From Streptomyces sp. NBC_00523 (GTDB lineage Bacteria; Actinomycetota; Actinomycetes; Streptomycetales; Streptomycetaceae): a stretch of 64,000 nucleotides of DNA. The stretch spans positions 6,138,001 through 6,202,000 of the forward strand of contig NZ_CP107836.1 of the NCBI RefSeq assembly GCF_036346615.1. Direction: 5' to 3'. The translations under genes and the position numbers were made by a program. Of this stretch, positions 35,286-64,000 are shown piece after piece; positions within the stretch are counted from its first letter, which is position 1; every line of letters begins with the position of its first letter. The notes under the pieces were generated by a model. The model worked only from the letters and a program-made list of their open reading frames with translations, was not told where the DNA came from and made no database searches.

Positions 35286-36577
35286 GGCGTCGCTCCGGCG
35301 GACGCGGGGTCGGCGGGCAGCGGTGCTCCGGCGCCGAAGGGGGCGCCGTCCGGCCACCAGAGGTCCTCGGGGCTCAGCGCGCCGACCTCGTACTTGCCCA
35401 ACGCGCTCACGAGCAGGCGCAGTTCGAGTGCGATGCTCTCGACGAGGCGTACCAGGCCGTGGTCCGGGTCCTCGTCCACGGCGACCAGCGCGGCGCGGCC
35501 GAGCCCGACGGCCGTGGCGCCCAGGGCGAGGGCGCGCAGGGCACGTCCGCCCTCCCACATCCCGCCGCTCGCGAGCAGGCAGCCCCCGGGCGGCCCGATC
35601 CGGCGCAGGCACTCCGCGAGCGGGAGGCCGACCTGGTCCAGGAAGACACGGGGCGCCCAGCCGGTGCCGCCCTCCGCGCCGTCCACGGTGACGGCGTCCG
35701 CCCCGGCCGCCCAGGCGGTGCGGGCGGCGTGCGCGATGTCGCGGCCCGGGTGGAACTTCACCCACGTACGGGCCTTGGGGAAGTTGTTCCGCATGAAGCG
35801 CAGCTGCTGGCGCAGGATCTCGTCGGTGAAGGTGCCCGGCGTGGCGCAGCGCAGCCGGCGTCCGTCGTCCGCGCCGAACGGGTCGGTGACCGTGAAGCGG
35901 TCCGCCAGCGCCTCCGCCTCCGCGCCCCCGACGACGGTCATGCCGCCGAGGCCCGGTTTGGCGCCCTGGCCGGTCTTCAACTCGAAGGCCAGGCGCCCCG
36001 ATGCGAGCAGCGGCCGGGTGGCGGGGTCGCTGTAGAGGAGGTTCCAGACCTCCGAGTCGGCGTCCTCGGTGGACTGCTGGACGACGATCCCGCCGACCCC
36101 CTCGGGCGCCGCGTCGAGATACGCCTCGATGCGCGCGAGGAGCGCGGAGCGGGCGGCGTCCCCGCCGCGCCGGTAGCCGTGCACGGGGACCATGTTCTCG
36201 CCGATGACCATGGGGATGCCGAGGCGGCCGGCCTGCCGGGACGCCTGCACGGCCAGGTCGCCGCTGCCCGCCCGGGTCGATCCGAAGGCGGACAGGTAGA
36301 GCGGCAGCGCGGCGGTGAACCCGCCAGTGCGTGCGCCCAGTTCGACGTCCCCGAACTCCGGCTCGCGGGCGAGGTCGATCAGCTTCTCCAGCCGCTCCGG
36401 CATGAAGACGGGCGGCACGATCCTGGCCCGGTCGAGCGCGTCCGTACCGGCCTCGCTTGCGGGGCCGAAGAGCTCTCCACCGTACGAGCCGGGGTCGGGG
36501 AACACCTCGGCGGTGCCGCGCCGGGCGCGGGCGCGGATCGCGCGCTCGGGGAGGCCGGGGGCGGCGAGGGCGCTCAC
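35282..36577 (-). CDS. FMN-dependent glutamate-synthase-domain protein
   Basis: A 431-residue FMN barrel of the glutamate synthase central-domain family (GltB domain 2, also seen in GlxD-type N-methylglutamate synthases). Motifs: LKTGQGAKPGLGG (about 218), VKFHPGRDI, ADAVTVDGAEGGTG (FMN and substrate loop), LASGGMWEG and GATAVGLGRAALVAV (phosphate binding). There is no amidotransferase domain and no obvious FeS cysteine cluster. In the family, this part turns 2-oxoglutarate and ammonia into glutamate or a related amino acid. Within this operon it could supply glutamate to the mutase or nitrogen to the synthetase (inference). Its GTG start overlaps the previous stop (GTGA). Confidence 0.88.
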   Translation of the reverse strand: MSALAAPGLPERAIRARARRGTAEVFPDPGSYGGELFGPASEAGTDALDRARIVPPVFMPERLEKLIDLAREPEFGDVELGARTGGFTAALPLYLSAFGSTRAGSGDLAVQASRQAGRLGIPMVIGENMVPVHGYRRGGDAARSALLARIEAYLDAAPEGVGGIVVQQSTEDADSEVWNLLYSDPATRPLLASGRLAFELKTGQGAKPGLGGMTVVGGAEAEALADRFTVTDPFGADDGRRLRCATPGTFTDEILRQQLRFMRNNFPKARTWVKFHPGRDIAHAARTAWAAGADAVTVDGAEGGTGWAPRVFLDQVGLPLAECLRRIGPPGGCLLASGGMWEGGRALRALALGATAVGLGRAALVAVDEDPDHGLVRLVESIALELRLLVSALGKYEVGALSPEDLWWPDGAPFGAGAPLPADPASAGATP

Positions 36578-38901
36578 GGGGCCACCACCCCGGGGAGCTT
36601 CGGGTAGGCGCTGACCTGCCACAGCGCGTCGAGGCCGGTGAGGAAGCGGACGAGGCGCTGAAGGCCCATCCCGAAGCCCGCGCTGCCCGGGATGCCCTCC
36701 CGGGCCTCCTTGAGGTACCAGGCGTACTTGGCGGGGTTCTCGCCGCTCTCCCGCATCCGGGTGACGATGGTGGCGTAGTCCGACTCGCGCTCGCTGCCCG
36801 AGACCAGCTCGCCGTAGCCGTGCGGCGCGATCAGGTCGAAGTTCCGCAGCACCCCCGGGCGTTCCGGGTCCTCCCGGTCGTAGAAGCCGCGCGAGCCCTT
36901 CGGATAGTCGTTGATGAAGAACGGCCGGTCGCTCTCCAGGGAGAGGAGCCGTTCGCCGGTCCAGTCGATCTCGCTGTCCGGGCTCTGCGGGTGACCAGTC
37001 GTCAGGAGCCGTGCCACGGCCTCCTGATGGGTGCACACGTCGTACTTGCCGCTGCGGACGTCCGCGAAGTCGGCCTCCTGGCGGCCCAGTTCGGCGAGCA
37101 CATCCGGCACGGCGGTCCATACGTGCTCGGCGACGTGGGTGAGGAGCCCGGCGGCGACCTCCTGCGCGTCCTCGCGGCTCGCCCCGGCGATCTCCACGTC
37201 GATCTGGTGGAACTCGACCAGATGGCGGCCCGTGGTGGCGGTCTCCTCCGGCTCCACGCGGACGTTGGGCGCGATGTAGAACAGCTTCGGGAAGCCGTGC
37301 AGCGACGCCTGCTTGTACAGGATCGCGCTGGTCATCAGCTTGTACGGGCGCCCGTAGTAGTCGACGTCCAGTGCCTTGGCCCCGCGCCCGCCCGGGTCGG
37401 TGACGGGTCCCACGAGCGGGGGCAGCAGCTCCGTGAAGCCCGACCCCCGCAGGAAGTCGCGGGCCGCCCACAGCGCTTCCTGCTGGACGAGCATGGCGGC
37501 GCGCAGCTGCGGGGAGCGCAGGTGCTCACCGAGCGGGGGCGGCAGGGCGGGTCCTGCGGCCTGCGGGGCGTGGTCCATGACGGGCTCCTCTTCGTGGCGG
37601 TGGTGAGGGGTGTCGGTGCGGGGTCGGTACGAGGGCACGGGGTCGGCCGGCGGCCGGTCGTAGCGGTCGGCCATGTGGTTCAGGGCGGTGAGCAGGCCGT
37701 TGGAGGTCAGCGGCGCCAGGTCGGCCGGGGCGTCGGGGCGGATCGGCATCGCGCCGGTGTCCGACCAGCGCAGCCTCCCGTCCGCGCCGATCACGCTGCG
37801 GGAGCGGCCCGCGTTGTCGGGGTGGAGGCAGAACGGCACGTCGAGCAGGCCGCGTTCGAAGGCGGCGGGCAGCGCGCGGGCCAGGTCGGGGTGCAGACCG
37901 AGCACGGCCTCCACCAGGGCCCGGGCCTCCGTGTAGACCTCGGAGTCGTCCCGGCCCACGGGCAGCGGGGGACCGGCGAGTGCGGCGGCCGCGGCGGCGG
38001 TCTCCAGGGCGCGGACGTTCTCCGCGACGGTCGGGATACGCCGGGACTCGGCGGTCGTCTTCACGAGGATCCGGTCCGCCCCGGCCCGCACCGCGAGCCG
38101 CGCCGACGCCTCCAGCAGCCTGGTCGCCCCGCGCTCGGTGCGCGGGTAGACGCCCATGTAGGTGTAGAGGACGACGTGGTGGTCGACGCCCGCCGGCAGC
38201 AGCTCGCCGGCCAGGCGGCGCAGGGCCCGTATCGCCTCCTCGTCCTGGCCCGGGTCCGTCTGCTGCGCGTAGCTCAAGGAGACGCTGCGCACCCCGTGCT
38301 GGGCGAAGAACAGGCATTCCAGCACGCTCATCGCGACCAGCAGCCCGGGCGGGCAGAGCTGGCCGAGCAGGCAGCCGCCGAAGCTTTCGAGGTGCGGCAC
38401 GGAACCGGGGCGGGCGTGCCCCGCGAGGAGTTCGCACCCCTCGGCCCAGGCGGCGACGGACTCGCGCAGCGGGGTGCGGCCGTACGGCAGGCAGTAGGAG
38501 ACGGGCCCGCCCTCGGTCGCGTCGAGCCCCGCGGCGAGCAGGGCCCGGACGATGGCCTGCGGGCGGGCGGAGCCGTGGCGGACCTGGACCGGGAACCCGT
38601 CGTCGTGCACCCCGTCGAGCAGGGCCCGGGTGACGGCGAGCGGGTGCGTGGCGATCGGGTAGCCGTTGAGCCCGGCCCCCTCGGCGAGCGCGGCACCGGC
38701 GCCCGCGAGGTCGCCGACGCGGGTGTAGCTGTCGATGGTGAGCGTCCCGACGGTCGTGGCCGTGGCGGCCCGGGTCCGCTCCAGCCCCGTACGCATGGCG
38801 GCCGGGTCGCCGAACCCCATGCGGGGCTGGACCACCAGCCGTCCGGCGGACGCGGAGGCCGCGACGAACGCGCCGAACGGGCGCGGCGCGGTGGCGGTCA
38901 T
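36574..38901 (-). CDS. fused glutamate mutase large subunit and asparagine-synthetase-like class II synthetase core
   Basis: One open frame of 775 residues with two unlike halves. Residues 1 to about 425 are the glutamate mutase E subunit (methylaspartate mutase barrel): FPVQVRHGSARP (substrate Arg), EGGPVSYCLPYGR and GVYPRTERGATRL. A Pro/His-rich linker (about 425-441) has no stop codon. Residues 442-775 are a class II aminoacyl-tRNA-synthetase core like archaeal AS-AR asparagine synthetase: YKLMTSAILYKQ, VEFHQIDVEIA (motif 2 region) and FGMGLQRLVRFL (motif 3), with no anticodon-binding domain. A good ribosome binding site (GAGGAG) precedes the internal ATG at 37578, so a separate second protein may also be made. 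The start overlaps the small-subunit gene (ATGA). Confidence 0.88.
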   Translation of the reverse strand: MTATAPRPFGAFVAASASAGRLVVQPRMGFGDPAAMRTGLERTRAATATTVGTLTIDSYTRVGDLAGAGAALAEGAGLNGYPIATHPLAVTRALLDGVHDDGFPVQVRHGSARPQAIVRALLAAGLDATEGGPVSYCLPYGRTPLRESVAAWAEGCELLAGHARPGSVPHLESFGGCLLGQLCPPGLLVAMSVLECLFFAQHGVRSVSLSYAQQTDPGQDEEAIRALRRLAGELLPAGVDHHVVLYTYMGVYPRTERGATRLLEASARLAVRAGADRILVKTTAESRRIPTVAENVRALETAAAAAALAGPPLPVGRDDSEVYTEARALVEAVLGLHPDLARALPAAFERGLLDVPFCLHPDNAGRSRSVIGADGRLRWSDTGAMPIRPDAPADLAPLTSNGLLTALNHMADRYDRPPADPVPSYRPRTDTPHHRHEEEPVMDHAPQAAGPALPPPLGEHLRSPQLRAAMLVQQEALWAARDFLRGSGFTELLPPLVGPVTDPGGRGAKALDVDYYGRPYKLMTSAILYKQASLHGFPKLFYIAPNVRVEPEETATTGRHLVEFHQIDVEIAGASREDAQEVAAGLLTHVAEHVWTAVPDVLAELGRQEADFADVRSGKYDVCTHQEAVARLLTTGHPQSPDSEIDWTGERLLSLESDRPFFINDYPKGSRGFYDREDPERPGVLRNFDLIAPHGYGELVSGSERESDYATIVTRMRESGENPAKYAWYLKEAREGIPGSAGFGMGLQRLVRFLTGLDALWQVSAYPKLPGVVAP

Positions 38902-39311
38902 GCCCCCACCCGCGCGGGCGCCGCGAGGAACGCGCACAGGGCGTCCAGGTCGGCGGCCCCGTCCCCGAGGACGGCGTCGCAGCCCGCCGCGCGCAGCCGG
39001 GCCGCCTCGTCCTCCCGGGAGTGGCCGGCCGTGCCCAGCTTGCCGCCGACGGCCACCGGCAGGGCGCCGAGCCCCGGTTCGGCCCGCAGCGCGCGCACGG
39101 CGGCGAGCGCGTCCCGGTAGCCGTGGCCGTTGACGCTGCTGAGCACGACCGCGTCGGGGGCATGCCGGCGACAGGCGGCCGTGAGCAGACGGGGACTCAC
39201 GCAGGGGCCCAGCGCGACGACGGCGTGCCCCCGCTCCTCCAGGAACAGCCCGAGATACACGAGGTTCCAGGTATGGGAGTCCGAAGCGGTTCCGCTCAGG
39301 AGTATCTTCAT
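38898..39311 (-). CDS. cobalamin-binding small subunit of glutamate mutase
   Basis: A 137-residue B12-binding protein, usual length for the S subunit. The His that binds cobalt is in SDSHTWN (about 10-15), which reads DxHxxN where the classical motif is DxHxxG; SSVNGHGY (about 65) and VGGKLG (about 90) match the other two B12-contact loops. With the E subunit it rearranges L-glutamate to threo-3-methylaspartate by a radical from adenosylcobalamin. It is the first gene of the precursor operon. The ATG at 39311 is 176 bases from the MbtH gene, and a terminator lies between, so this operon has its own promoter. The leader contains repeated GCGGAAGT and GCGGCAGT elements. Confidence 0.9.
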   Translation of the reverse strand: MKILLSGTASDSHTWNLVYLGLFLEERGHAVVALGPCVSPRLLTAACRRHAPDAVVLSSVNGHGYRDALAAVRALRAEPGLGALPVAVGGKLGTAGHSREDEAARLRAAGCDAVLGDGAADLDALCAFLAAPARVGA

Positions 39312-39438
39312 GCCTCGATATTATTTTTCCGGACCCCTCCCAGGCGGAAGTAGAGGCGGAAGTCGAGCGGCAGTAACGGGCGGCAGTTTCCCGTTTCCGG
39401 GTTTTCCGGGAAAAGGGGCCGGCGGGCATGCGGAAATG

Positions 39439-39469
39439 CCGTGCCCCCGCACGAGCTGCGGGGGCACGG
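39439..39469 (-). terminator. terminator hairpin after the MbtH gene
   Basis: A perfect 13-base-pair stem (CCGTGCCCCCGCA with its complement) and a 5-base loop, 18 bases after the MbtH stop on the minus strand. It separates the NRPS operon from the glutamate mutase operon. Confidence 0.88.
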
Positions 39470-39487
39470 CAGGGGCGCTGCGGCCGG

Positions 39488-39703
39488 TCAGGCGTACTGG
39501 GCGACCAGGCTGCGGGGGCGGATGTCGGTCCAGTGCGCGGTGATGTACTCCAGGGCCTCGGAGCGGTTACCGGGCCCCCAGACACCTTCCCAGCCTGCCG
39601 GGATGTCGGCGAAGGCCGGCCACAGGGAGTGCTGTCCCTCGTCGTTCACCACGACGTGGAAGGAGCCCTCGGCGTCGTCGAAGGGGTTCGCGATGTCGCT
39701 CAT
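39488..39703 (-). CDS. MbtH-like protein
   Basis: A 71-residue MbtH protein, typical length. The signature is intact: [40 protein letters not shown], with the three conserved Trp residues. MbtH proteins bind A domains and are needed for their folding or activity. Its ATG overlaps the stop of the last NRPS gene (ATGA), so it is made with it. The free-standing and trans-acting A domains in this cluster are likely clients. Confidence 0.95.
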
Positions 39704-50856: not shown

Positions 50857-52698
50857 TCAGCCATCCTTGGCGGCCGTCAACTCCTCGATGTGGGCGGCGA
50901 GATCACGCAGCCTCGGGTGGGCGTAGACCGCCTTCACCGGAAGCGCGACGGCGAGTTCGGCACGTACGCGCGACACCAGCTTGATGGCGAGCAGCGAGTG
51001 GCCGCCGAGCTTGAAGAAGTTGTCGTCCGGGCCGATCGACGCGGCGCCCAGCACCTGCGCCCACACCCGGCCGATCAGCTCCTCCGCCCGCCCGTTCAGC
51101 CCGGCGCCCCGCTCCGGCGCCTCGACCGGCGAGGCCGCCTCGATCCGGGCCGGCAGCGCGGACCGGTCCAGCTTGCCGCTGGGTGTCGTCGCGAACCGGT
51201 CGACCGCGACGAACGCGGACGGCGTCATGTACGAGGGCAGCGCCCCCGCCACGGCGCTGCGCAGCGCGCTGGCGTCCCCGCCCCGGTGGTAGGCGATCAG
51301 GCACGGCGTGCCCCCGGCGTCCTCGCCCAGGACCACCGCCGCCTCCGTGGCGCCCGCCCGGCTCAGGGTCGCCTCGATCTCCTGCACCTCGATGCGGTGG
51401 CCGCGCAGCTTCACCTGCCCGTCGAGCCGTCCGAGGTGCACGAGGCGCCCGTCCGGCAGCAGCCGGCAGCGGTCCCCGGTGCGGTACATGCGGTCCCCCG
51501 GCGCGCCGAACGGGTCGGCGACGAACCGCTGGGCGGTCAGGTGGGGGCTGCGCCGGTAGCCGCGCGCGATCCGGGGCCCGGCGAGATACAGCTCCCCGGC
51601 CTCACCCGGACCGACCGGCGCCATGCGGGCATCCAGCAGCCGCATCCGCAGCCCCGGGAGGACGGCACCGATGTGCGGCTCGCCCGGCTCCTCGATCCAG
51701 CCGGCCGTGGCGTCGACCGTGCACTCGGTGGGCCCGTACACGTTCACCGCGCGCAGCACACCCGCCCGGTGGGCGTCGGCCAGCCGGTCCCACAGGGCCG
51801 GGCCGATCGCCTCGCCGCCGACGAGCAGCGTCAGCGGGCGCGGGCCGCCGTCCGGGGTGAGCAGGTCCAGGAGCGGTTCGGCGTGCGACGGGGTGATGTC
51901 CAGATCGGTGAGCTTCTGCGCGTCGATGAAGGCGGCCAGCAGGGCCGGGTCGCGGCGGGTCTCCTCGTCCATCATCACCAGCGTGTCCCCGCGCGACAGC
52001 CGCACCCACTGCTGCACCGACGCGTCGAACGACGGCGACGCGTTCCACCCGACCCGCCGCCCCTCACCGCGCGCCGCACCCTCGTCCTCCAGCTCCCGCA
52101 GCAGCAGCGAGGCCGAACCGCGCGCGATCTCCACACCCTTGGGCCGGCCCGTGGAGCCGGAGGTGTAGATGACGTACGCGAGTGCGTCCGGCCCCACCGG
52201 CACCGGCGCGAACGCCCCGCCGGGGAGCGCGGTCAGCTCGCCGACCGTGACCGCCCGGGGGCCGGGAAGCGCCGGACCGGTGCCGTCCGTGACCACCAGG
52301 TCGGCGCCGGAGTCCTCGAGGAGCAGCCGCCGCCGCTCCTCGGGGAGAGCCGGGTCCACGGGCAGGTAGGCGGCGCCCGCCGTGAGGGTGCCGACGATCG
52401 CGGTGACCAGGTCGGCCCCGCGCGGCAGGCAGAGCGCCACGACGCTCTCCGGCCCGGCACCCCGCCGGGTGATCCCGGCCGCGAACGAGGCGGCGTGCTG
52501 TCGGAACTGGTTGAACGTCAGCTCTCGGTCCCCGGCGACGACGGCGGTGCGGTCACCGGGCACGGCCGCGAGCCGGGCCATCAGGTCGGCGGCGCCGGTC
52601 CCGGCGGCGGTGCACGTCTCGCAGGGGCAGCCGGCCGGGTGGGCGAGGGCGGAGGCGGTCGCGCGCTCGGGGAGTACGGCGGTCATGGCGGGGCTCAC
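50857..52698 (-). CDS. free-standing A-T didomain, glutamine-type
   Basis: A 613-residue protein with an A domain (about 45-530) and a carrier (about 545-605, FKLGGHSL). A3 is [12 protein letters not shown]5 VYGPTECT and the final Lys is in PSGKLDR. The GrsA-aligned pocket reads D-A-Q-D-L-G-V-V-D-K, the known glutamine code of lichenysin synthetase (glutamate differs at the third place). A short Cys-rich N-terminus (CPCETC, about 24-29) comes before the A domain. With no C domain it must pass its amino acid on in trans, probably to an A-less module of the next protein, perhaps after hydroxylation by the dioxygenase encoded just upstream. The GTG start overlaps that gene (GTGA). Confidence 0.92.
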   Translation of the reverse strand: MSPAMTAVLPERATASALAHPAGCPCETCTAAGTGAADLMARLAAVPGDRTAVVAGDRELTFNQFRQHAASFAAGITRRGAGPESVVALCLPRGADLVTAIVGTLTAGAAYLPVDPALPEERRRLLLEDSGADLVVTDGTGPALPGPRAVTVGELTALPGGAFAPVPVGPDALAYVIYTSGSTGRPKGVEIARGSASLLLRELEDEGAARGEGRRVGWNASPSFDASVQQWVRLSRGDTLVMMDEETRRDPALLAAFIDAQKLTDLDITPSHAEPLLDLLTPDGGPRPLTLLVGGEAIGPALWDRLADAHRAGVLRAVNVYGPTECTVDATAGWIEEPGEPHIGAVLPGLRMRLLDARMAPVGPGEAGELYLAGPRIARGYRRSPHLTAQRFVADPFGAPGDRMYRTGDRCRLLPDGRLVHLGRLDGQVKLRGHRIEVQEIEATLSRAGATEAAVVLGEDAGGTPCLIAYHRGGDASALRSAVAGALPSYMTPSAFVAVDRFATTPSGKLDRSALPARIEAASPVEAPERGAGLNGRAEELIGRVWAQVLGAASIGPDDNFFKLGGHSLLAIKLVSRVRAELAVALPVKAVYAHPRLRDLAAHIEELTAAKDG

Positions 52699-53732
52699 TT
52701 TCCGTACAGGGTGGTGGAGGGGGCGGAGGCGGGCGAGCAGTCGGACAGCGGCACCGGCTCGCCCATCGCGACGAGGATCTTCCGCTCGCCGGTGAACGCC
52801 TCGCGGCCGTGCGCGCAGAGGATGTTGTCCACGAGCATCACGTCACCGGTCTGCCAGCTCTCCCGTACGGTGACCGCCTGGTACGCCTCGTTGATCGCGT
52901 CCACCTCCGCGTCGGTGAGGGCGGTGCCGTCCCCGAGGAAGGTGTTGAACGGCAGCCCGTCCGCGCCGAACGTCTCGACCAGCACGTCACGGACGTCCTC
53001 GTCCAGGCTGCGGGCGTTCCAGAAGGCGAAGTGGTTGAACCAGACCTTCTCACCGGTCACCGGGTGCGTGATGATCGCGGAACGCCGCTGCCGGGTCCGG
53101 AGGGTGTCCTCGTCCAGCCAGTCGTAGCCGATGGCGTGCGCGTCGCAGTACTCCTCGGCACCGGCCGGGTCCTCCGAGGAGAACGCCTTGCGCCACGGCA
53201 TGCCCGCCAGGTCCGAGTAGTTGCGTACGAGCAGCCAGCCGGCCTCCGCGAACCGCGCGGTCAGCTCCGGCGGCAGCTTCGCGAGCGCCGCCCGCATGTC
53301 ACCGACCGTCGTCGCGCCGCCGGTCTCGGCCGCGGTGACGCAGCCGAAGAGCAGCACCCCGGGGAAGTCCAGCGTGTAGCTGTTCTCGTTGTGCAGCCGG
53401 ATCGGCTGGACGGCCGGCAGGTCCGTGGACGAGAACACGCCCTCACCGAAGTCCGTGCGCGGGGTGGCCTTCTCCTTGTAGCCGGCCCGCTCCGCGATCA
53501 GCGCGTCACGTGCCTCGGCGAACGTCGCCGCGTCCCGCACCGGCAGTCCGCGCAGCATGACCGCGCCGGACCGGTGCAACTCGGCCTGGATCGCATGCCG
53601 CTGGGCGTTCAGCCACGCGGTGGCCTCCGCCATGGTGCCGAACTCCGGCGTGTGGACGATCACCGGCTTGCCGGGCTCGCGAACGGGGGTGATACCGGTG
53701 GCGGCGGCGGGCGGCTGGGCGAGAGCGGTCAC
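52695..53732 (-). CDS. TauD-family Fe(II)/2-oxoglutarate dioxygenase (amino acid hydroxylase)
   Basis: A 345-residue TauD/TfdA-family enzyme, similar in type to SyrP. The iron ligands are His and Glu in LHNENSY (HxE, about 145) and the distal His in ILCAHGREAF (about 316); the Arg just after binds 2-oxoglutarate. Such enzymes hydroxylate the beta carbon of an amino acid, often while it is on a carrier protein. It sits next to the free-standing A-T gene, so beta-hydroxyglutamine on that carrier is the likely product (inference). The GTG start at 53732 follows AGAGGAA. The stop overlaps the A-T start. Confidence 0.92.
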   Translation of the reverse strand: MTALAQPPAAATGITPVREPGKPVIVHTPEFGTMAEATAWLNAQRHAIQAELHRSGAVMLRGLPVRDAATFAEARDALIAERAGYKEKATPRTDFGEGVFSSTDLPAVQPIRLHNENSYTLDFPGVLLFGCVTAAETGGATTVGDMRAALAKLPPELTARFAEAGWLLVRNYSDLAGMPWRKAFSSEDPAGAEEYCDAHAIGYDWLDEDTLRTRQRRSAIITHPVTGEKVWFNHFAFWNARSLDEDVRDVLVETFGADGLPFNTFLGDGTALTDAEVDAINEAYQAVTVRESWQTGDVMLVDNILCAHGREAFTGERKILVAMGEPVPLSDCSPASAPSTTLYGK

Positions 53733-53778
53733 GATGGGTTCCTCTTTCTCGGCTTGGTTCGAACGAAGTGGGGTGGGG

Positions 53779-54561
53779 TTACGCGGACGCGGCGGCGGAG
53801 TCGCGCAGGGCGTCGAGGACCGGGTTGAGACGGGCGAAGAAGCCCGCCAGGTCCTGCTGGAAGTAGAAGTGGTCACCGGGCAGCACCTGCGGCTCGACCT
53901 CGTGCCCGGTCACCAGCGACCAGCCCGCCAGCATCTCCGCCGGGACGATCGGGTCGGCGTCCCCGCCGAACACCGCCACGGGGCAGTCCAGTTGGGCGTT
54001 CGGGGCGGTGCACCGGTAGGCATCGTCGATCGCGAAGTCGGCGCGGATGGACGGCAGGACGATCTCGCGCAGCTCGGGGTCGTCGAGGATGCCGTCGTCG
54101 GTGCCGCCGCGCTCCTTGATGGCCGCGACCAGCTGGTCGTCGTCCAGCAGTTCCGGATGCACGGGGCACTGGTTCGGCAGCACCGGCGCCCGGCACGCGG
54201 AGGCGATCAGCAGGCGCGGAGTGCGGCCGGCGGCCCGCAGGGCGCGTACCACCTCGAAGGCCACCAGCGACCCCATGCTGTGCCCCAGCACCACCAGCTC
54301 ACCGGTGTCGGCGGGCAGCGAGTCCACCACGGGCTGCGCCAGGTCGTCCACGGACAGCGGCAGGTCCTCGCAGTAGCGGGCGCCGCGGCCCGGGTACTGG
54401 CCGATCAGCAGCCGCACATCGGCCGGCAGGTGCTCGCGCCAGCCGCCGTAGGCGTGGGCGTTGCCCCCGGCGTGCGGCAGCACCAGCAGCGAGAGGCGGT
54501 GCGGGCCGTCACCGGGAAGGTCCCAGACGACGTCTTCGGGGGCGGGGGACACGGAGGTCAT
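53779..54561 (-). CDS. type II thioesterase
   Basis: A 260-residue alpha/beta hydrolase of the type II thioesterase family. Nucleophile Ser in GHSMGS (about 94), Asp in GGDADPIV (about 203) and His in PGDHFYF (about 232) form the triad; the family opening LLVLPHAGGNAHAY is present. It clears wrong or stalled acyl groups from the carriers of the assembly line. Its ATG overlaps the stop of the large NRPS (ATGA). Confidence 0.95.
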   Translation of the reverse strand: MTSVSPAPEDVVWDLPGDGPHRLSLLVLPHAGGNAHAYGGWREHLPADVRLLIGQYPGRGARYCEDLPLSVDDLAQPVVDSLPADTGELVVLGHSMGSLVAFEVVRALRAAGRTPRLLIASACRAPVLPNQCPVHPELLDDDQLVAAIKERGGTDDGILDDPELREIVLPSIRADFAIDDAYRCTAPNAQLDCPVAVFGGDADPIVPAEMLAGWSLVTGHEVEPQVLPGDHFYFQQDLAGFFARLNPVLDALRDSAAASA

Positions 54562-57500
54562 GAGCTGATCCGTTCTGTCTCGGTACGACGGCGGAGGGTG
54601 GGCCGGGCCTTCTTGGCGGCCGGTGCGGACTTCAGCGCGGTGATGTGCTCGGCGAGCCGGGCCGGTGTCGGGTGCTCGAAGACGTCGCGGACGGTGAGCC
54701 GGACGTCCAGGGAGACCGCGATGTGGTTGGTGAGGCGGGCGCCCAGGAGGGAGTGGCCGCCGTGGTGGAAGAAGTCGTCATCGATGGTCAGTGCTTCCTC
54801 GGCCCCCAGCGTGCGGGCGAAGAGGCCGGTCAGGGTCTCTTCCAGCGGGTTGCGCGGGGCGCGGCCCCGGGAGGCGACAGCGGCAGGCTCCGGGAGGGCG
54901 CGCCGGTCGATCTTGCCGTTGGGGGTGAGGGGGAGCCGGTCGAGGACGGTGAGGTAGGTGGGCACCATGTGCTCGGGCAGCCGCTCGGTGAGATGCCTGC
55001 GGATGTCCTCGGTCGTCGTGCCGGTGTCGGTGACGACGTAGGCGGCGAGCTGGCGGCGGTGGGTGGTGACGGTGGCCTGGGTCAGGTGGGGGTGGCTGAG
55101 CAGCGCGGTCTCCACCTCGGCGGGTTCGACGCGGAAGCCCCGGATCTTCACCTGGCTGTCCGCCCGGCCTTCGTAGTGCAGGCGGCCTTCGCGGTCGAAC
55201 CGGGCGAGGTCTCCGGTGCGGTAGAGCCGGGTGCCGGGTTCGCCGTACGGGTTCGGTACGAAGGTGGTGGCGGTGAGGTCGGGGCGGTTGAGGTAGCCGT
55301 GGGCGAGGCCGTGTCCGGTGAGGTAGAGGTGGCCGGTGACACCGGGCGGGACGGGTTGGAGGGTGGCGTCGAGGATGTAGGCGGCCTTGTTGGTGAGGGG
55401 TGAGCCGATGGGGATGGTGGGGTGGGGCTCGTCGGTGGGGGCGACGGTGTGGGTGGTGGTGAAGCCCATGGACTCGGCGGGGCCGTATCCGTTGACCACG
55501 GTGGTGTGGGGCGAGAGCTGTTGGAGTTTGTGCACGTGGGCGGGGGAGGCCGCCTCGCCACCGGTGTAGGCGATGGTGACGGTGGTGAATGCCTCGGGGT
55601 GTTCGTCGGTGAGGTAGTTGAAGAGGCTGGCGGAGAGTTGGAGCATCGTGACGCCGTGGCGGTGGGACAGCTCGGCGATGAGGGCGGGTTCGGGCTTCTG
55701 TCCGGGTTGGAGGACGGTGGTGCCGCCGTGGAGGAGTGCGCCCCAGAATTCGAGGCTGAAGGCGTCCCAGGAGACGGGTGAGCACTGGAGGAACACCTCG
55801 TCCGGGCCGAAGTTCCCGTATGTCTGCGCGGTGACCGTGGAGACCAGGTTGCGGTGCGAGGACAGGATGCCCTTGGGCCGTCCGGTGGAGCCGGAGGTGA
55901 ACATCACGCAGGCGAGGTCGTCGCCCTGGATCGGCAGACCGAGGTTGCCGGCGTCGTGGTGGGTCAGCTCGTCCGGGCCTTCGGGGCAGGTGGTCCAGGT
56001 TCCGGGGAGGCGGTCGGCGAGTGCGGTGTGGGTGACGAGGTGGCTGATGGCGGCCTCGGTCGCTGCGGAACGCAGGCGCTCGTCGGGGAAGTCCGGGTCG
56101 AGCAGCACGTGCCCGGCGCCGGTTTTGAGTACGGCGATGAGGGCGGCGGCGAAGGTGGCGTTGCGTTCCAGGAGGATGCCGGCGAGGTCGCCCCGGCCGA
56201 GGCCGCGTGCGCGCAGGTGGTGGGCCCAGCGGTTGGCGGTGGCGTTGAGCTCCGCGTACGTGTAGCTGTTCTCGCCGTCGATGAGCGCGACGGCCTCCGG
56301 GGTTCGGGCGGCCTGGTCCTCGAAGCGTGCGACCAGCGAGGTGGCGCCGATGTCGGCGGTGGTCCCCGCCCACGGCCCGAGGATGAGTTGCCGTTCGGCG
56401 GCCGACACCACGTCCAGCTCACCGACGCGCAGCTCGGGATCGGCCAGCGCCTGGCGCAGCACCTCGCCGAGCACGGTCACCATGCGTTCGACGGTGGACC
56501 GGTCGAACAGGTCCTCCGCGTAGAGCACCGTGCCCCGCAGCCCCTGGCCGTCGTCCGTGCGGAGCAGGAACTCCACGTCGAACTTGGCCGCGCCGCTCGT
56601 GACGTCCGGCATCGCGGTGACCGTCGCGTCCCCGAGCCGCAGCTCCGGAACGCCTCCGGATTCCAGGGTGAGGCAGATCTGGAAGAGGGGGTGGCGGGCG
56701 AGTGTGCGGGTGGGGTTGAGGGCGTCGAGGACGAGGTCGAAGGGTGCGTCCTGGTGGGCGAAGGCGTCCAAGTCCGTGGCACGGACGCGTTCCAGCAGCT
56801 CCCGGAAGGTGGGGTTGCCGTCGGTGTGGGTGCGCAGGACGAGGGTGTTGACGAAGAACCCGACCAGATCGCGGAGTGCTTCGTCGGTGCGTCCGGCGAC
56901 GGGTGAGCCGATGGCCAGGTCGGTGCCGGCGCCCAGTCGGGTGAGCGCTGCGGCCAGGGCCGCGTGCACCACCATGAACGGGGTGCACCCCTCGGCGCGG
57001 GCCAGCGCGCCGATGCGCTCGAACAGGTCGTCTCCCAGGGCGACTTCGAACTGACCGCCCCGGTGCGAGGCGCGTGCGGGGCGCGGGCGGTCCAGGTTCA
57101 GGGCGTGCTCCTCGGGGAGCCCTTCCAGCGTCTTGTGCCAGAACGCCAACTCCTGGGAGAGCACGCTGTCCGCGTCGTCGGCGGCCCCCAGCGCCCGCTG
57201 CTGCCAGACCGCGTAGTCCGCGTACCGCACCGGCAACGGTTCCAGGACACTCCCGGTCGCACCCGCGCTCCGCGCCTCGTAAGCCCGGGACAGGTCATCG
57301 AACAGCACTCCGGTGGACCGGCCGTCCGTCGCGATGTGGTGGAGCAGGAGCAGGAGCACCGAGGAGTCGTCATCGACCTCGAACAGGGTCGCCCGGACGG
57401 GGAGTTCGCTGCGGAGATCGAAGACGTGGCGCGCGGCCCCGGCCATGGCGCGGTCCAGCTCGCCGGAGGTCACCTCGCGGCGCTGGAAGGGCACCTGGGC

Positions 57501-60500
57501 CTCCGCGGCCGGTACGACGTGCTGGCGCGGTTCGCCGTCGACCGTCGCGAACACGGTCCGCAGCGGGGTGTGACGTACGACCACGTCGTGCAGCGCCGCG
57601 TCGAGCACCCCGGCGTCCAGCGGACCGGTCAGCCGTACCGCCATCGGTACGTTGTACGCGGCGCTGCCGCCGTCCAGCTCGGCCATCAGCCACAGGCGGC
57701 GCTGGGCGAAGGACACGGGCGCGTCGCCGTCACCGGACCAGGCCCCGGCGGTGAGCGGCGGGAGCGCGGGCCGGCCGTCGAGGGTGGCGATGTGCTGGGC
57801 GAGGCGTGCGGGCGTGGGGTGCTGGAACACGTCCCGCATGGTCAGCCGGATGCCCAGCACCTCGGCGAGGTGGTTGGTGAGGCGGGCCGCCAGCAGCGAG
57901 TGCCCGCCATGGGCGAAGAAGCTGTCCTCGACACCCACTGGCCCCGGAGTGCCCAGCACCTTGCTGAACAGGGCGACCGTGACCTCTTCGAGCTGGCTCC
58001 CCGGGGCGCGGCCCTGCGAGGCGACGGCGGCCGGTTCGGGCAGGGCGCGTCGGTCGATCTTGCCGTTGGGGGTGAGGGGGAGCCGGTCCAGGACGGTGAG
58101 GTAGGCGGGAACCATGTGCTCGGGGAGCCGGTCGATCAGGTGTCGGCGGATGTCTTCCGTGGCGGTCTCGGTGTCGGTGACGACGTAGGCGGCGAGCTGG
58201 TCGCGGTGGGTGGTGACGGTGGCCTGGGTGAGGTGGGGGTGGGTGAGGAGCGCGGCCTCGATCTCACCGGGTTCGATGCGGAAGCCGCGCACCTTGACCT
58301 GGCTGTCCGCCCGGCCTTCGTAGTGCAGGTGGCCGTCGTGGTCGAAGTGGGCGAGGTCTCCGGTGCGGTAGAGGCGGGTGCCGGGGTCGCCGTAGGGGTT
58401 GGGGATGAAGGTGGTGGCGGTGAGGTCGGGGCGGTTGAGGTAGCCGTGGGCGAGGCCGTGTCCGGTGAGGTAGAGGTGGCCGGTGACGCCGGGTGGGACG
58501 GGTTGGAGGGTGGCGTCGAGGACGTAGGCGGCCTTGTTGGTGAGGGGTGAGCCGATCGGGATGGTGGGGTGGGGTTCGGTGGTGGGGGCGATGGTGTGGG
58601 TGGTGGTGAAGCCCATGGATTCGGCGGGGCCGTATCCGTTGACCACGGTGGTGTGAGGTGAGAGGTGCTGAAGCTTGTGGACGTGGGCGGGCGAGGCGGC
58701 TTCCCCGCCGGTGTAGGCGACGGTGACCGACGCGAACGCTTCGGGGTGTTCGTCGGTGAGGTAGTTGAAGAGGCTGGCGGAGAGTTGGAGCATCGTGACG
58801 CCGTGGCGGTGGGACAGCTCGGCGATGAGGGCGGGTTCGGGCTTCTGTCCGGGTTGGAGGACGGTGGTGCCGCCGTGGAGGAGTGCGCCCCAGAATTCGA
58901 GGCTGAAGGCGTCCCAGGAGACGGGTGAGCACTGGAGGAACACCTCGTCCGGGCCGAAGTTCCCGTATGTCTGCGCGGTGACCGTGGAGACGAGGTTGCG
59001 GTGCGAGGACAGGATGCCCTTGGGCCGCCCGGTGGACCCCGACGTGAACATCAGGCATGCCACGTCGTTCCCCGTGACCGTCACACCCAGGTTGCGGTCC
59101 GGCGTCTCCACCGGCACTCCGCCGGAGCACGAGACCACACCCCAGGGGCCTGCCACACGCTGCCCGAGGACGTCGTCCGTTACGAGCAGGGCGATGCCCG
59201 CATCCTGTGCGGCCGAGCGAAGACGCTCGTCGGGGAAATCGGGGTCGAGCAGGGTGTAACCGGCGCCCGTCTTGAGTACGGCGATGAGGGCGGCGGCGAA
59301 GGTGGCGTTGCGTTCCAGGAGGATGCCGGCGAGGTCGCCCCGGCCGAGGCCGCGTGCGCGCAGGTGGTGGGCCCAGCGGTTGGCGGTGGCGTTGAGCTCC
59401 GCGTACGTGTAGCTGCTCTCGCCGTCGATGAGCGCGACGGCCTCCGGGGTTCGGGCGGCCTGGTCCTCGAAACGTGCGACCAGCGAGGTGGCGCCGATGT
59501 CGGCGGTGGTCCCGGCCCACGGCCCGAGGATCAGCCCCCGCTCGGCGGCCGACAGCACCTCCACGTCTCCGATGTGTGCTTCCGGGTCGTCCAGGGCCTG
59601 GCGCAGCACCCCGCCGAGCACGGTCACCATGCGCTCCACGGTGGCCCGGTCGAACACGTCCTCCGCGAAGACGACGACCCCGTGCAGGCCCCGGCTGTCG
59701 TCCGACCGGAGCAGGAACTCCAGGTCGAACTTGGCCGAACCGTTGGTCAGCCCCCGCACCTCGGCAGTCTGACCGCCCAGCCCCAGCGTCGGAGCCTCAC
59801 CGGCCTCCAGGGCGAGGCAGATTTGGAAGAGGGGGTGGCGGGCGAGTGTGCGGGTGGGGTTGAGGGTGTCGATGACGAGGTCGAAGGGTGCGTCTTGGTG
59901 GGCGAAGGCGTCGAGGTCGGTGGTGCGGACGCGTTCGAGCAGTTCGCGGAAGGTGGGGTTGCCGTCGGTGTGGGTGCGCAGGACGAGGGTGTTGACGAAG
60001 AACCCGACGAGTTCGTGCAGGGCTTCGTCGGTGCGTCCGGCGACGGGGGAGCCGATGGCCAGGTCGGTGCCGGCGCCGAGGCGGGTGAGGGCTGCGGCGA
60101 GCGCGGCGTGGACGACCATGAAGGGGGTGCAGCCCTCGGACCGGGCCAGCTCGCCGATGCGCTCGAACAGGTCCTCTCCCAGGGCCACTTCGACCTGACC
60201 GCCCCGGTGCGAGGCCACCGCCGGACGGGGTCGGTCGAGGCTCAGCCCGTGCTCCTCCGGCAGTGCGCCCAAGGTGTCCCGCCAGAAGGCGAGTTCGCGG
60301 GAGAGCACGCTGTCCGCGTCGTCGGCCGAGCCCAGCACCCGCTGCTGCCATACCGCGTAGTCCGCGTACTGCACCGGAAGCGGCTCAAGCACGCTCGCGG
60401 TCGCACCCGCGCTCCGCGCCTCGTAGGCCCGGGACAGGTCATCGAAGAAGACACCGGCCGAGCGGCCGTCCGTCGCGATGTGGTGGAAGAGCAGGAACAG

Positions 60501-63500
60501 GACGGGGCGCCCGTCTTCGAGGTCGAACAAGGTGGCCCGCAGCGGGTTCCCGGTCCGGAGGTCGAACCGGTGCCGGGTGGCCGCGTCCAGGTCACCGTCC
60601 AGCGAGGCCGCCGTCGACGTCCGGCGCTCGATGACGACCCGGGCTCCGGCGGCCGGCTGGACGCGCTGCCGGGGCTCCCCGTCGCCCGTCGTGAACACGG
60701 TGCGCAGTGGCGCGTGGCGCTCCACGACGTCGTTGAGCGCGGCTTCCAGGGCATCGACGTCCGGGGTGCCTCCCAGGCGTACGGCCATCGGCACGTTGTA
60801 CGCGGTGCTCCCGCCGTCCAGCTCCGCGAGCAGCCACAGACGGCGCTGGGCGAACGAGACGGGGCTGTCCGGCCCGTCGCCCGCCTCGCCCGCGACCAGG
60901 GGCGGCAGCGCAGGGCGCCCCTTCAGCGAGGCGATGTACTGCGCGAGGCGCGCGGGCGTGGGGTGCTGGAACACGTCCCGGATGGTCAGCCGGACGCCCA
61001 GCACATCGGCCATGTGGTTGGTGAGGCGGGCCGCCAGCAGCGAGTGCCCGCCGTGGGCGAAGAAGCTGTCGTCCACACCCGCCGGCTCCGAGGTGCGCAG
61101 CACCCGGCTGAAGAGGGCAACCGTCACCTCTTCCAGCTGCGTCTGCGGCATCCGCTCGGTGCTCACCACCGCGACCGGCTCGGGCAGCGCGCGCTTGTCG
61201 ATCTTCCCGTTCGGCATGAGGGGGAAGCGGTCGAGTGGCGTGAGGTAGGCGGGGACGAGGTGTTCGGGGAGTCTGTCGGCCAGGTGGCGGCGAAGCTCTG
61301 CCGGGTCGGCGCTGGTGACGACGTAGGCGGAGAGCTGGTCGTGGTGCTTGGTGACGACGGCCTGGGTGACCTGTGTGTGGGTGAGGAGTGCGGCTTCGAC
61401 CTCGGCGGGTTCGATGCGGAAGCCGCGGATCTTGATCTGGTGGTCGGCGCGGCCTTCGTAGTGGAGGCGCCCGTCGTGGTCGAAGTGGGCGAGGTCGCCG
61501 GTGCGGTAGAGCCGGGTCCCGCCGGGGCCGTACGGGTTCGGGACGAAGCTGGTGGCGGTGAGGTCGGGTCGGTTGAGGTAGCCGTGGGCCAGACCGTCGC
61601 CGGATACGTACAGCTCACCGGTGGCGCCGGGTGCGCAGAGCCGGAGCGCGGTGTCGAGCACATACAGCGGCTTGTTGACCAGCGGGGTGCCGATGGGGAT
61701 GGCGGTGTGGGGCTCGTCGGCGGGCTCGATGGTGTGGGTGGTGGCGTAGATCATCGCCTCCGCCGGTCCGTACCCGTTGAGCACCTTGATCCCCGGCCTG
61801 GCGCTGTGCAGCTTGTGTACGTGGACGGGCGAGGCGGCTTCCCCGACGGTGTAGGCCGTGGTCACCGAGTCGAAGGTCTCGGGGTGTTCGTCGGTGAGGT
61901 AGTTGAAGAGGCTGGCCGACAGCAGGAGGGTCGTGACGCGGTGCTTGGGGGCCAACTCGGCGATGATCGCCGGTTCCGGCTTCTGCCCGGGCTGAAGGAC
62001 GACACGTGCGCCGTGCAGCAGGGGCCCCCAGAATTCGAGGCTGAATGCGTCCCAGGAGATGGGGGAGGACTGGAGGTACACCTCGTCCGCACCCGTCGGC
62101 AGGTAGGTCTGTCCGACCAGGGTCGACACGAGGTTGCGGTGCGAGGAGACGATGCCCTTGGGCCGTCCGGTGGAGCCGGAGGTGAACATCACGCAGGCGA
62201 GGTCGTCGCCCTGGATCGGCAGGCCGAGGTTGCCGGCGTCGTGGTGGGTCAGGTCGTCCGGGCCTTCGGTGCAGGTGGTCCAGGTTCCGGGGAGGCGGTC
62301 GGCGAGTGCGGTGTGGGTGACGAGGTGGCTGATGGCGGCCTCGGTCGCGGCGGACCGCAGGCGCTCGTCGGGGAAGTCCGGGTCGAGCAGCACGTGCCCG
62401 GCGCCGGTCTTGAGTACGGCGATGAGCGCGGCGGCGAAGGTGGCGTTGCGTTCGAAGAGAATGCCCGCCAGGTCACCCCGGCCGAGGCCGTGCCCGCGCA
62501 GCTCGCGCGCCCAGCGGTTGGCGGTGGCGTTGAGCTCGGCGTACGTATAGCTGTGCTCACCGTCGATCAGCGCAACGGCCTCCGGGACCCGCGCCACCTG
62601 CTCCTCGAAACGCTGCACGAGTGACACATCGTCCCGAGCGGCCACCTCCCCGGCCCACGCCCCGAGCAGCACCTCCCGCTCACCCGCCGACAGCACATCG
62701 ACGTCCCCGATGCGCGCCTCCGGGTCGGCCAGCGCCTGGCGCAGCACCGCTCCGAGCACGGTCACCATGCGCTCGACGGTGGAGCGGTCGAACAGGTCCT
62801 CCGCGAAGACGACCATGCCGCGCAGGCCCTCGCCGTCGTCCGTGCGGAGCAGGAATTCCAGGTCGAACTTGGCCGAGCCGTTGGCGAACGTCTGCACGGC
62901 TTGCGGTCGCACCCCGGGCAGAGCCAGCACCGGTGTGCTGGTCTCCAGGGTGAGGCAGATCTGGAAGAGGGGGTGGCGGGCGAGTGTGCGGGTGGGGTTG
63001 AGGGCATCGAGGACGAGGTCGAAGGGGGCGTCCTGGTGGGCGAAGGCGTCCAAGTCCGTGGCACGGACGCGTCCCAGCAGTTCCCGGAAGCTGGGGTTGC
63101 CGGTCGTGTCAGTGCGCAGGACCAGGGTGTTGACGAAGAACCCGACCAGATCGCGCAGCGCCTCATCGGTGCGCCCGGCCACAGGTGAGCCGATGGCCAG
63201 GTCGGTGCCGGCGCCCAGCCGGGTGAGCGCTGCGGCCAGGGCCGCGTGCACCACCATGAACGGGGTGCACCCCTCGGCGCGGGCCAGCTCACCCACGCGG
63301 GCGAACAGGTCGTCACCGAGATCGACGGCCACCTCACCGCCCCGGTGCGAGGCCCGTGCGGGGCGCGGCCGGTCCAGGTTGAGACCGTGCTCCTCCGGAA
63401 GGCTCTCCAAGGCGCCCTGCCAGAAGGCGAGTTCGCGGGAGAGCACGCTGTCCGCGTCGTCGGCCGAGCCCAGCACCCGCTGCTGCCACACCGCGTAGTC

Positions 63501-63998
63501 CGCGTACTGCACCGACAGCGGCTCAAGCACCCGTCCCTCGGCTCCGGCCATCCGTGCCTCGTACGCACGGGCCAGATCCGTCACGTACGCCTCGCCCGAC
63601 TGGCCGTCCGTGGCGATGTGGTGCAGCACGAGGACCAGGTGGTGCGTGGTGCCGTCCAGCCGGAACAGTGTGACGGTGAGCGGGAGCTCACTGCGGAGGT
63701 CGAAGACGTGGCGACCCGCCTCGGCCACCGCGTGGTCCAGCTCCCCGGCGGTCACCTCGCGGCGCTCCATGCGCACCCGCGCCCCGGTGGCCGGGAGGAT
63801 GCGCTGCCGGGGTTCGCCGTCCACCGTTTCGTACCGGGTGCGCAGGGGTGCGTGGCGCTCGATGACGTCGTTGAGCGCGGCTTCCAGGGCGTCGGCGTCC
63901 AGGGTGCCGTCCAGGCGTACGGCCATCGGCACGTTGTACGCGGTGCTTCCGCCGTCCAGGTCCGCCAGCAGCCACAACCGGCGCTGGGCGAACGACAT
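54558..63998 (-). CDS. NRPS with three C-A-T modules, possibly 5'-truncated by the window edge
   Basis: At least 3,146 residues: C (1-440), A (459-936), T (945-1030), C (1045-1480), A (1506-1983), T (1993-2076), C (2092-2525), A (2549-3034), T (3043-3122). All three C domains have HHIATDG and all carriers GGHSLL; there is no epimerase. GrsA-aligned pockets: first A close to D-A-L-L-Y-V-G-I-Y-K; second and third identical, D-A-L-Q-Y-G-G-G-F-K, so they should take the same residue. I know no substrate for these codes. The third A domain is a mosaic of the other two. The first Met (63998) sits at PxSFAQRRLW, normally internal, so the gene probably continues past the right edge. The tail PTLRRRT matches that of the next NRPS. 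Confidence 0.94.
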   Translation of the reverse strand: MSFAQRRLWLLADLDGGSTAYNVPMAVRLDGTLDADALEAALNDVIERHAPLRTRYETVDGEPRQRILPATGARVRMERREVTAGELDHAVAEAGRHVFDLRSELPLTVTLFRLDGTTHHLVLVLHHIATDGQSGEAYVTDLARAYEARMAGAEGRVLEPLSVQYADYAVWQQRVLGSADDADSVLSRELAFWQGALESLPEEHGLNLDRPRPARASHRGGEVAVDLGDDLFARVGELARAEGCTPFMVVHAALAAALTRLGAGTDLAIGSPVAGRTDEALRDLVGFFVNTLVLRTDTTGNPSFRELLGRVRATDLDAFAHQDAPFDLVLDALNPTRTLARHPLFQICLTLETSTPVLALPGVRPQAVQTFANGSAKFDLEFLLRTDDGEGLRGMVVFAEDLFDRSTVERMVTVLGAVLRQALADPEARIGDVDVLSAGEREVLLGAWAGEVAARDDVSLVQRFEEQVARVPEAVALIDGEHSYTYAELNATANRWARELRGHGLGRGDLAGILFERNATFAAALIAVLKTGAGHVLLDPDFPDERLRSAATEAAISHLVTHTALADRLPGTWTTCTEGPDDLTHHDAGNLGLPIQGDDLACVMFTSGSTGRPKGIVSSHRNLVSTLVGQTYLPTGADEVYLQSSPISWDAFSLEFWGPLLHGARVVLQPGQKPEPAIIAELAPKHRVTTLLLSASLFNYLTDEHPETFDSVTTAYTVGEAASPVHVHKLHSARPGIKVLNGYGPAEAMIYATTHTIEPADEPHTAIPIGTPLVNKPLYVLDTALRLCAPGATGELYVSGDGLAHGYLNRPDLTATSFVPNPYGPGGTRLYRTGDLAHFDHDGRLHYEGRADHQIKIRGFRIEPAEVEAALLTHTQVTQAVVTKHHDQLSAYVVTSADPAELRRHLADRLPEHLVPAYLTPLDRFPLMPNGKIDKRALPEPVAVVSTERMPQTQLEEVTVALFSRVLRTSEPAGVDDSFFAHGGHSLLAARLTNHMADVLGVRLTIRDVFQHPTPARLAQYIASLKGRPALPPLVAGEAGDGPDSPVSFAQRRLWLLAELDGGSTAYNVPMAVRLGGTPDVDALEAALNDVVERHAPLRTVFTTGDGEPRQRVQPAAGARVVIERRTSTAASLDGDLDAATRHRFDLRTGNPLRATLFDLEDGRPVLFLLFHHIATDGRSAGVFFDDLSRAYEARSAGATASVLEPLPVQYADYAVWQQRVLGSADDADSVLSRELAFWRDTLGALPEEHGLSLDRPRPAVASHRGGQVEVALGEDLFERIGELARSEGCTPFMVVHAALAAALTRLGAGTDLAIGSPVAGRTDEALHELVGFFVNTLVLRTHTDGNPTFRELLERVRTTDLDAFAHQDAPFDLVIDTLNPTRTLARHPLFQICLALEAGEAPTLGLGGQTAEVRGLTNGSAKFDLEFLLRSDDSRGLHGVVVFAEDVFDRATVERMVTVLGGVLRQALDDPEAHIGDVEVLSAAERGLILGPWAGTTADIGATSLVARFEDQAARTPEAVALIDGESSYTYAELNATANRWAHHLRARGLGRGDLAGILLERNATFAAALIAVLKTGAGYTLLDPDFPDERLRSAAQDAGIALLVTDDVLGQRVAGPWGVVSCSGGVPVETPDRNLGVTVTGNDVACLMFTSGSTGRPKGILSSHRNLVSTVTAQTYGNFGPDEVFLQCSPVSWDAFSLEFWGALLHGGTTVLQPGQKPEPALIAELSHRHGVTMLQLSASLFNYLTDEHPEAFASVTVAYTGGEAASPAHVHKLQHLSPHTTVVNGYGPAESMGFTTTHTIAPTTEPHPTIPIGSPLTNKAAYVLDATLQPVPPGVTGHLYLTGHGLAHGYLNRPDLTATTFIPNPYGDPGTRLYRTGDLAHFDHDGHLHYEGRADSQVKVRGFRIEPGEIEAALLTHPHLTQATVTTHRDQLAAYVVTDTETATEDIRRHLIDRLPEHMVPAYLTVLDRLPLTPNGKIDRRALPEPAAVASQGRAPGSQLEEVTVALFSKVLGTPGPVGVEDSFFAHGGHSLLAARLTNHLAEVLGIRLTMRDVFQHPTPARLAQHIATLDGRPALPPLTAGAWSGDGDAPVSFAQRRLWLMAELDGGSAAYNVPMAVRLTGPLDAGVLDAALHDVVVRHTPLRTVFATVDGEPRQHVVPAAEAQVPFQRREVTSGELDRAMAGAARHVFDLRSELPVRATLFEVDDDSSVLLLLLHHIATDGRSTGVLFDDLSRAYEARSAGATGSVLEPLPVRYADYAVWQQRALGAADDADSVLSQELAFWHKTLEGLPEEHALNLDRPRPARASHRGGQFEVALGDDLFERIGALARAEGCTPFMVVHAALAAALTRLGAGTDLAIGSPVAGRTDEALRDLVGFFVNTLVLRTHTDGNPTFRELLERVRATDLDAFAHQDAPFDLVLDALNPTRTLARHPLFQICLTLESGGVPELRLGDATVTAMPDVTSGAAKFDVEFLLRTDDGQGLRGTVLYAEDLFDRSTVERMVTVLGEVLRQALADPELRVGELDVVSAAERQLILGPWAGTTADIGATSLVARFEDQAARTPEAVALIDGENSYTYAELNATANRWAHHLRARGLGRGDLAGILLERNATFAAALIAVLKTGAGHVLLDPDFPDERLRSAATEAAISHLVTHTALADRLPGTWTTCPEGPDELTHHDAGNLGLPIQGDDLACVMFTSGSTGRPKGILSSHRNLVSTVTAQTYGNFGPDEVFLQCSPVSWDAFSLEFWGALLHGGTTVLQPGQKPEPALIAELSHRHGVTMLQLSASLFNYLTDEHPEAFTTVTIAYTGGEAASPAHVHKLQQLSPHTTVVNGYGPAESMGFTTTHTVAPTDEPHPTIPIGSPLTNKAAYILDATLQPVPPGVTGHLYLTGHGLAHGYLNRPDLTATTFVPNPYGEPGTRLYRTGDLARFDREGRLHYEGRADSQVKIRGFRVEPAEVETALLSHPHLTQATVTTHRRQLAAYVVTDTGTTTEDIRRHLTERLPEHMVPTYLTVLDRLPLTPNGKIDRRALPEPAAVASRGRAPRNPLEETLTGLFARTLGAEEALTIDDDFFHHGGHSLLGARLTNHIAVSLDVRLTVRDVFEHPTPARLAEHITALKSAPAAKKARPTLRRRTETERISS
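55594..55844 (-). repeat. 251-base perfect repeat, copy in third A domain
   Basis: Identical base for base to 58741-58991 in the second A domain, including silent positions. It covers the pocket-forming part between motifs A3 and A5. Sequence on the downstream side stays very similar; upstream of about 55,845 it instead resembles the first A domain. Confidence 0.9.
58741..58991 (-). repeat. 251-base perfect repeat, copy in second A domain
   Basis: Partner of 55594-55844, 3,147 bases away (one module length). Complete identity within two otherwise diverged modules points to recent gene conversion. Confidence 0.9.
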
Positions 63999-64000
63999 GG

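Follow-up and report, generated by a model that had tools for sequence, protein, structure and literature searches.

A shared mosaic in the fourth A domain of a Streptomyces NRPS, M2-like from motif A2 to motif A3 and M3-like in the substrate pocket

Recombination inside the A core is a main route of NRPS diversification, and the Acore subdomain exchanges described in that setting have boundaries at conserved motifs and change the amino acids of the product (Baunach et al., 2021; PMC8097286). In Streptomyces sp. MST110588, the recombinant region of wolG1 A2 extends from motif A2 to A5/A6, has an intragenomic donor, and carries the pocket along (Booth et al., 2022; PMC9205934). Concerted evolution by internal recombination, in which a cluster's own modules are more alike than orthologous modules, has been described in several NRPS and PKS families, and in the rapamycin family such events were judged by the authors to be likely neutral (Medema et al., 2014; PMC4256081). 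With regard to substrate recognition, SlgN1 of the streptolydigin pathway, which was solved with an MbtH-like domain (PDB 4GR4/4GR5), activates (2S,3S)-3-methyl-L-Asp (PMC11253843).

The window considered here, a stretch of 64,000 nucleotides from Streptomyces sp. NBC_00523 (the genome designated L001), contains part of a four-module NRPS gene on the minus strand (54558..64000, from ORF and genome context), with an in-window reading frame at 54558-63998. The gene extends beyond the window; with the flank fetched, the whole of it occupies window-equivalent positions 54558-67202 (minus) and encodes 4214 aa. Its module order is C-A-T, repeated four times (Pfam: 4x Condensation, AMP-binding, AMP-binding_C, and PP-binding). 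Counted from the N-terminus, the modules are M1 to M4, of which M1 lies outside the window. The initial annotation of this DNA spoke of a first, a second, and a third A domain; three are indeed present in the window, but they are those of M2, M3, and M4. The A domain of M4 is located at 54876..56441 (minus) by module alignment and by its PDB matches, which include SlgN1 (4gr5) and GrsA (1amu).

In a codon alignment of the four modules, the positions at which M2 and M3 differ were taken as informative sites. The M4 A domain contains an M2-like tract of about 240 bases that spans motifs A2 to A3 at 55881..56121 (minus; maximum extent 55866-56141), in which M4 is M2-like at 65/66 informative sites, as against 30/270 outside the tract. 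The log-likelihood gain for the tract is 100.7, while the highest of 200 shuffles reached 11.7; in a second alignment with relatives added (90/92 sites), the tract ends were unchanged for the window's genome. Upstream of the tract, M4 is M3-like over 56387-56142 (54 sites), a stretch that takes in most of a 144-base run, 5' of the tract, in which M4 and M3 are identical (56125..56268, minus), and the domain is M3-like again from 55865 on. Two breakpoints are therefore observed directly, both of them inside the A core: one at 56142-56121, at A2, and one at 55881-55865, at the end of the 10-residue A3 motif of M4 (55869..55898, minus). The pocket part begins with 251 bases (55594..55844, minus) that are identical to bases 58741..58991 (minus) of M3, with 55844-55594 corresponding to 58991-58741. 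The donor-type segment in M2 lies at 62166..62406 (minus), which is the M4 tract shifted by 6285 bases, and this register follows from two exact runs (56063-55995 = 62348-62280 and 55937-55866 = 62222-62151).

Within the tract, identity at third codon positions is 95% for M4-M2, 48% for M4-M3, and 63% for M1-M2. Because the third positions differ so sharply (95% vs. 48%), the likeness of M4 to M2 in the tract reflects shared descent and not protein-level convergence. The M4 mosaic is genuine, and chance falls far short of explaining it. The initial annotation had proposed natural recombination inside this A domain, with a segment at about 55,860-56,110 resembling M2 and 251 bases identical to M3, and all three points hold; the similarity plot and breakpoint test that it suggested reveal a clear switch of nearest relative. 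Its statement that the front of the domain, up to A3, follows M2 is correct for the A2-A3 segment but not for the M3-like stretch before it, and the breakpoint that it placed near A3 is accompanied by another at A2.

None of the nine pocket-code positions, which follow the GrsA convention, falls inside the M2-like tract in the alignment. The tract corresponds to residues 107-187 of the translated domain, and the code begins further on, near residue 226. In all seven clusters that carry the mosaic (described below), wherever the module is present, M1 and M2 have the code DALLYVGIY, and the code of M3 and M4 is DALQYGGGF. Every relative with both M3 and M4 has a single code for the two, including S. 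fragilis (L010), S. tanashiensis (L014), and the outgroup G214. The M4 of S. fragilis has DALQYGGGF without the patch, and that of S. tanashiensis has DALQFGGGF. If the patch is the incoming part, the exchanged segment holds no code position. The predicted substrate of M4 is the same as in the orthologous modules. The comparison with related clusters that had been advised thus recovers the mosaic itself but no substrate change in M4, and the claim that the swap set the substrate choice is not supported by the predicted codes or by the relatives. A different situation is seen in M2 of S. fragilis, where the whole A domain is M3-type and the code is DALQYGGGF instead of DALLYVGIY; this is a relative in which replacement of an A domain does change the predicted substrate.

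Relatives came from a scan of one genome per species, which returned many related clusters, and from a further search of 295 genomes of the genus, which added one more informative outgroup (G214). The mosaic (M1/M2-type A2-A3 and M3-type pocket in M4) is also observed in four four-module relatives (L004, L005, L006, and L007) and in two partial ones (L012 and L013), making seven clusters with the window's own. In the tree of A2-A3, the M4 copies of all seven join M1/M2 (support 95/97); in that of the pocket, they join M3. Approximately unbiased (AU) tests agree: M3 and M4 as one group are rejected for A2-A3 (p-AU 2e-4), as is M4 with M1/M2 for the pocket (p-AU 9e-7). Since the mosaic is common to the seven clusters, it is older than the split of these strains, and the event is an old and shared one, not peculiar to the window's genome. 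In L006, the M4 A domain stops aligning in its C-terminal part, after ...TATTFVPGASRRYSWISG in this frame, possibly through a frameshift or an assembly fault.

Although the mosaic is shared, its tracts are more alike within genomes than between them. In A2-A3, M4 and M2 are 98% identical in the window's genome and 99% in L004, whereas the M4 copies of these two genomes are 91% identical to each other; other M4 segments are 93-98% identical between the two. A clade of these two M4 copies has a p-AU of 0.03 in A2-A3, and the M4 of L006 pairs with the M2 of L006 in the A2-A3 tree (support 100/99). L005, L007, L012, and L013 each have M3 and M4 pocket parts that match one another at 98-100% identity. 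The tract ends also vary among the genomes that carry the mosaic. Within-genome likeness of paralogues together with varied tract ends is the pattern that repeated inter-module gene conversion leaves, and M4 has the features expected of it, namely a paralogous tract closer than the orthologous one, and a short tract with two breakpoints. M2 is M1/M2-type along its whole A domain, which fits a non-reciprocal transfer, although earlier homogenization blurs the donor state. Elsewhere in the four-module codon alignment, the best partner of the C and thiolation domains changes again and again over short distances; in one portion of the T domain, for example, M1 pairs with M4 and M2 with M3. Of the many inter-module exchanges in this gene, the M4 A-domain mosaic is the cleanest.

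Like the Acore subdomain exchanges (PMC8097286), the M4 case involves A-core recombination bounded by conserved motifs, but those exchanges change product amino acids, whereas the patch proposed for M4 precedes the pocket and leaves it with the code of M3. Like wolG1 A2 (PMC9205934), it occurs in Streptomyces, with an intragenomic donor and a breakpoint at A2; the wolG1 exchange, however, includes the pocket, while the M4 tract ends at A3. As in concerted evolution (PMC4256081), the cluster's own modules are more alike than orthologous modules, although here the pattern is resolved to sub-domain tracts with distinct partners, M2 for A2-A3 and M3 for the pocket. The M4 case thus combines intragenomic A-domain recombination (PMC9205934) with concerted evolution (PMC4256081) at sub-domain scale, and it differs from substrate-changing swaps in that the inferred patch is outside the pocket.

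The account that we consider probable is an old intragenic gene conversion of the A2-A3 patch followed by continuing homogenization. According to this model, an M1/M2-type A2-A3 patch would have entered an M3-type M4 A domain by gene conversion between modules of the same gene, before the split of the seven related clusters. Afterwards, in each genome separately, M2 and M4 would have been re-homogenized in the patch, and M3 and M4 in the pocket part. The substrate pocket would have been left untouched, so that M3 and M4 keep one code, and the patch itself may be functionally near-neutral. That an M1/M2-type patch went into an M3-type M4 appears to be the simplest history, a point on which we are slightly less confident than on the account as a whole. 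This direction is favored because the flanks on both sides of the tract are M3-like and because M4 of S. fragilis is M3-type through A2-A3; M3 is likewise the nearer relative of M4 in the C-A linker, at the domain start, and in the C-terminal subdomain. Three genomes fall outside the seven clusters in the MutE protein tree, namely G214, S. fragilis, and S. tanashiensis. In G214, M3 and M4 are identical in A2-A3 and are placed weakly nearer to the M1/M2 side; holding all M3-type copies together in the A2-A3 tree, those of G214 included, costs 6.9 log units and is not rejected (p-AU 0.065). The M4 of S. tanashiensis also has an M2-like A2-A3 segment, which probably derives from its own M2, as suggested by their grouping (support 100/95), and the patch is accordingly either older or arose twice. 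The order of exchanges should be read with caution, as repeated homogenization wipes out early events.

The initial annotation saw the same mosaic as a pocket swap, with M4 once M1/M2-type and then gaining the post-A3 pocket from M3 along with a new substrate. Under such a swap the exchanged segment would hold the code positions, and natural swaps that take in the pocket are the usual kind (PMC8097286; PMC9205934). The M4 modules of L005, L006, and L007, which are M1/M2-type from about A1-A2 to A3 and M3-type from A3 onward, are also what it would produce. However, extra exchanges are then needed to explain why the linker, domain start, and C-terminal subdomain of M4 are nearer to M3; the M4 of S. 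fragilis is M3-type in A2-A3; and the M4 code equals the M3 code in every relative tested, with none that has another M4 code. We regard this history as unlikely, although it is the strongest of the competing ones. Less probable again is that A2-A3 of M4 has been repeatedly exchanged while selection keeps the patch M1/M2-like and the pocket M3-like, for reasons of, for example, folding, P-loop positioning, or contact with neighboring domains. If true, the M4 A domain would be a two-source mosaic maintained for a functional reason.

A further history, which we find marginally more doubtful still, makes M3 the altered copy, its A2-A3 segment replaced from elsewhere, with M4 retaining the old state of M1 and M2. 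In the core clusters M1, M2, and M4 do have one segment type in common, from which only M3 departs, and the weak placement of G214 M3 and M4 leans the same way. Nevertheless, the core M3 A2-A3 segments form a group, if a weak one (84/83), with M3-type domains of the same pocket type from L030, S. fragilis, and S. tanashiensis, so that a private import is not required. An assembly artefact is very improbable: the modules are long and alike, so that mis-joining is conceivable, but the window's genome is in 2 contigs, and independently sequenced relatives have the same mosaic with sequence differences of their own, which contradicts it. Least credible is the absence of any recombination, for which no evidence was found, as third-position identity (95% for M4-M2, with the other compared pairs at 47-63%) rules out protein-level selection or convergence and, together with shuffles that never came near the observed statistic, chance similarity.

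As for what M4 loads, SlgN1 is the best PDB match for the M3/M4 pocket (4gr4/4gr5), with 8/9 code residues equal, which makes it the closest solved pocket, although it belongs to another pathway and has Ile where M3 and M4 have Tyr. The same cluster encodes a methylaspartate mutase E-like (MutE) chain fused to an asparagine-synthetase-A-like domain (36574..39585, minus; Pfam PF06368 and tRNA-synt_2), and the synthetase part, of archaeal type, matches NCBIfam asparagine synthetase A above cut-off. Because of the SlgN1-like pocket and the mutase chain, M3 and M4 are both predicted most likely to load 3-methylaspartate or a close derivative, or its amide. The fusion protein likely supplies the 3-methylaspartate-type substrate, and its architecture suggests that a single protein takes Glu through 3-MeAsp to 3-MeAsn. 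A MutE match was present in all ten relatives searched. It is on the same contig as the NRPS, within several kilobases, in L004 and L012, where the lengths of the contigs match, and at neighboring coordinates in L005, L007, L010, L014, and L021. Close relatives (L005/L070 and L007/L069) have the MutE/synthetase match in a single long frame, whereas L010/L068, L014/L065, and others have a frame for each of the two parts. The literature searched yielded no named product that matches the cluster by glutamate mutase plus asparagine synthetase, or by 3-methylasparagine.

Other genes surround the NRPS. Directly downstream are a stand-alone thioesterase (53779-54561, minus) and a TauD-family dioxygenase (52695-53876, minus), which are probably editing and tailoring enzymes. 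A second NRPS protein (46979-50794, minus) has two C and two T domains and only the C-terminal subdomain of an A domain, with no A core; a separate A-T protein is encoded at 50857-52698 (minus), and loading of the former in trans is likely. Outside the window, L003:11067-16493 (minus), upstream of the NRPS region, encodes an RHS-repeat protein with a pretoxin HINT domain.

The M4 A domain offers a well-resolved natural record of which A-domain pieces can move between modules and persist, here while at least seven strains diverged, and it indicates a natural junction pair at A2 and A3. It also calls for caution in interpreting such mosaics, as a striking NRPS mosaic need not signal a change of substrate.
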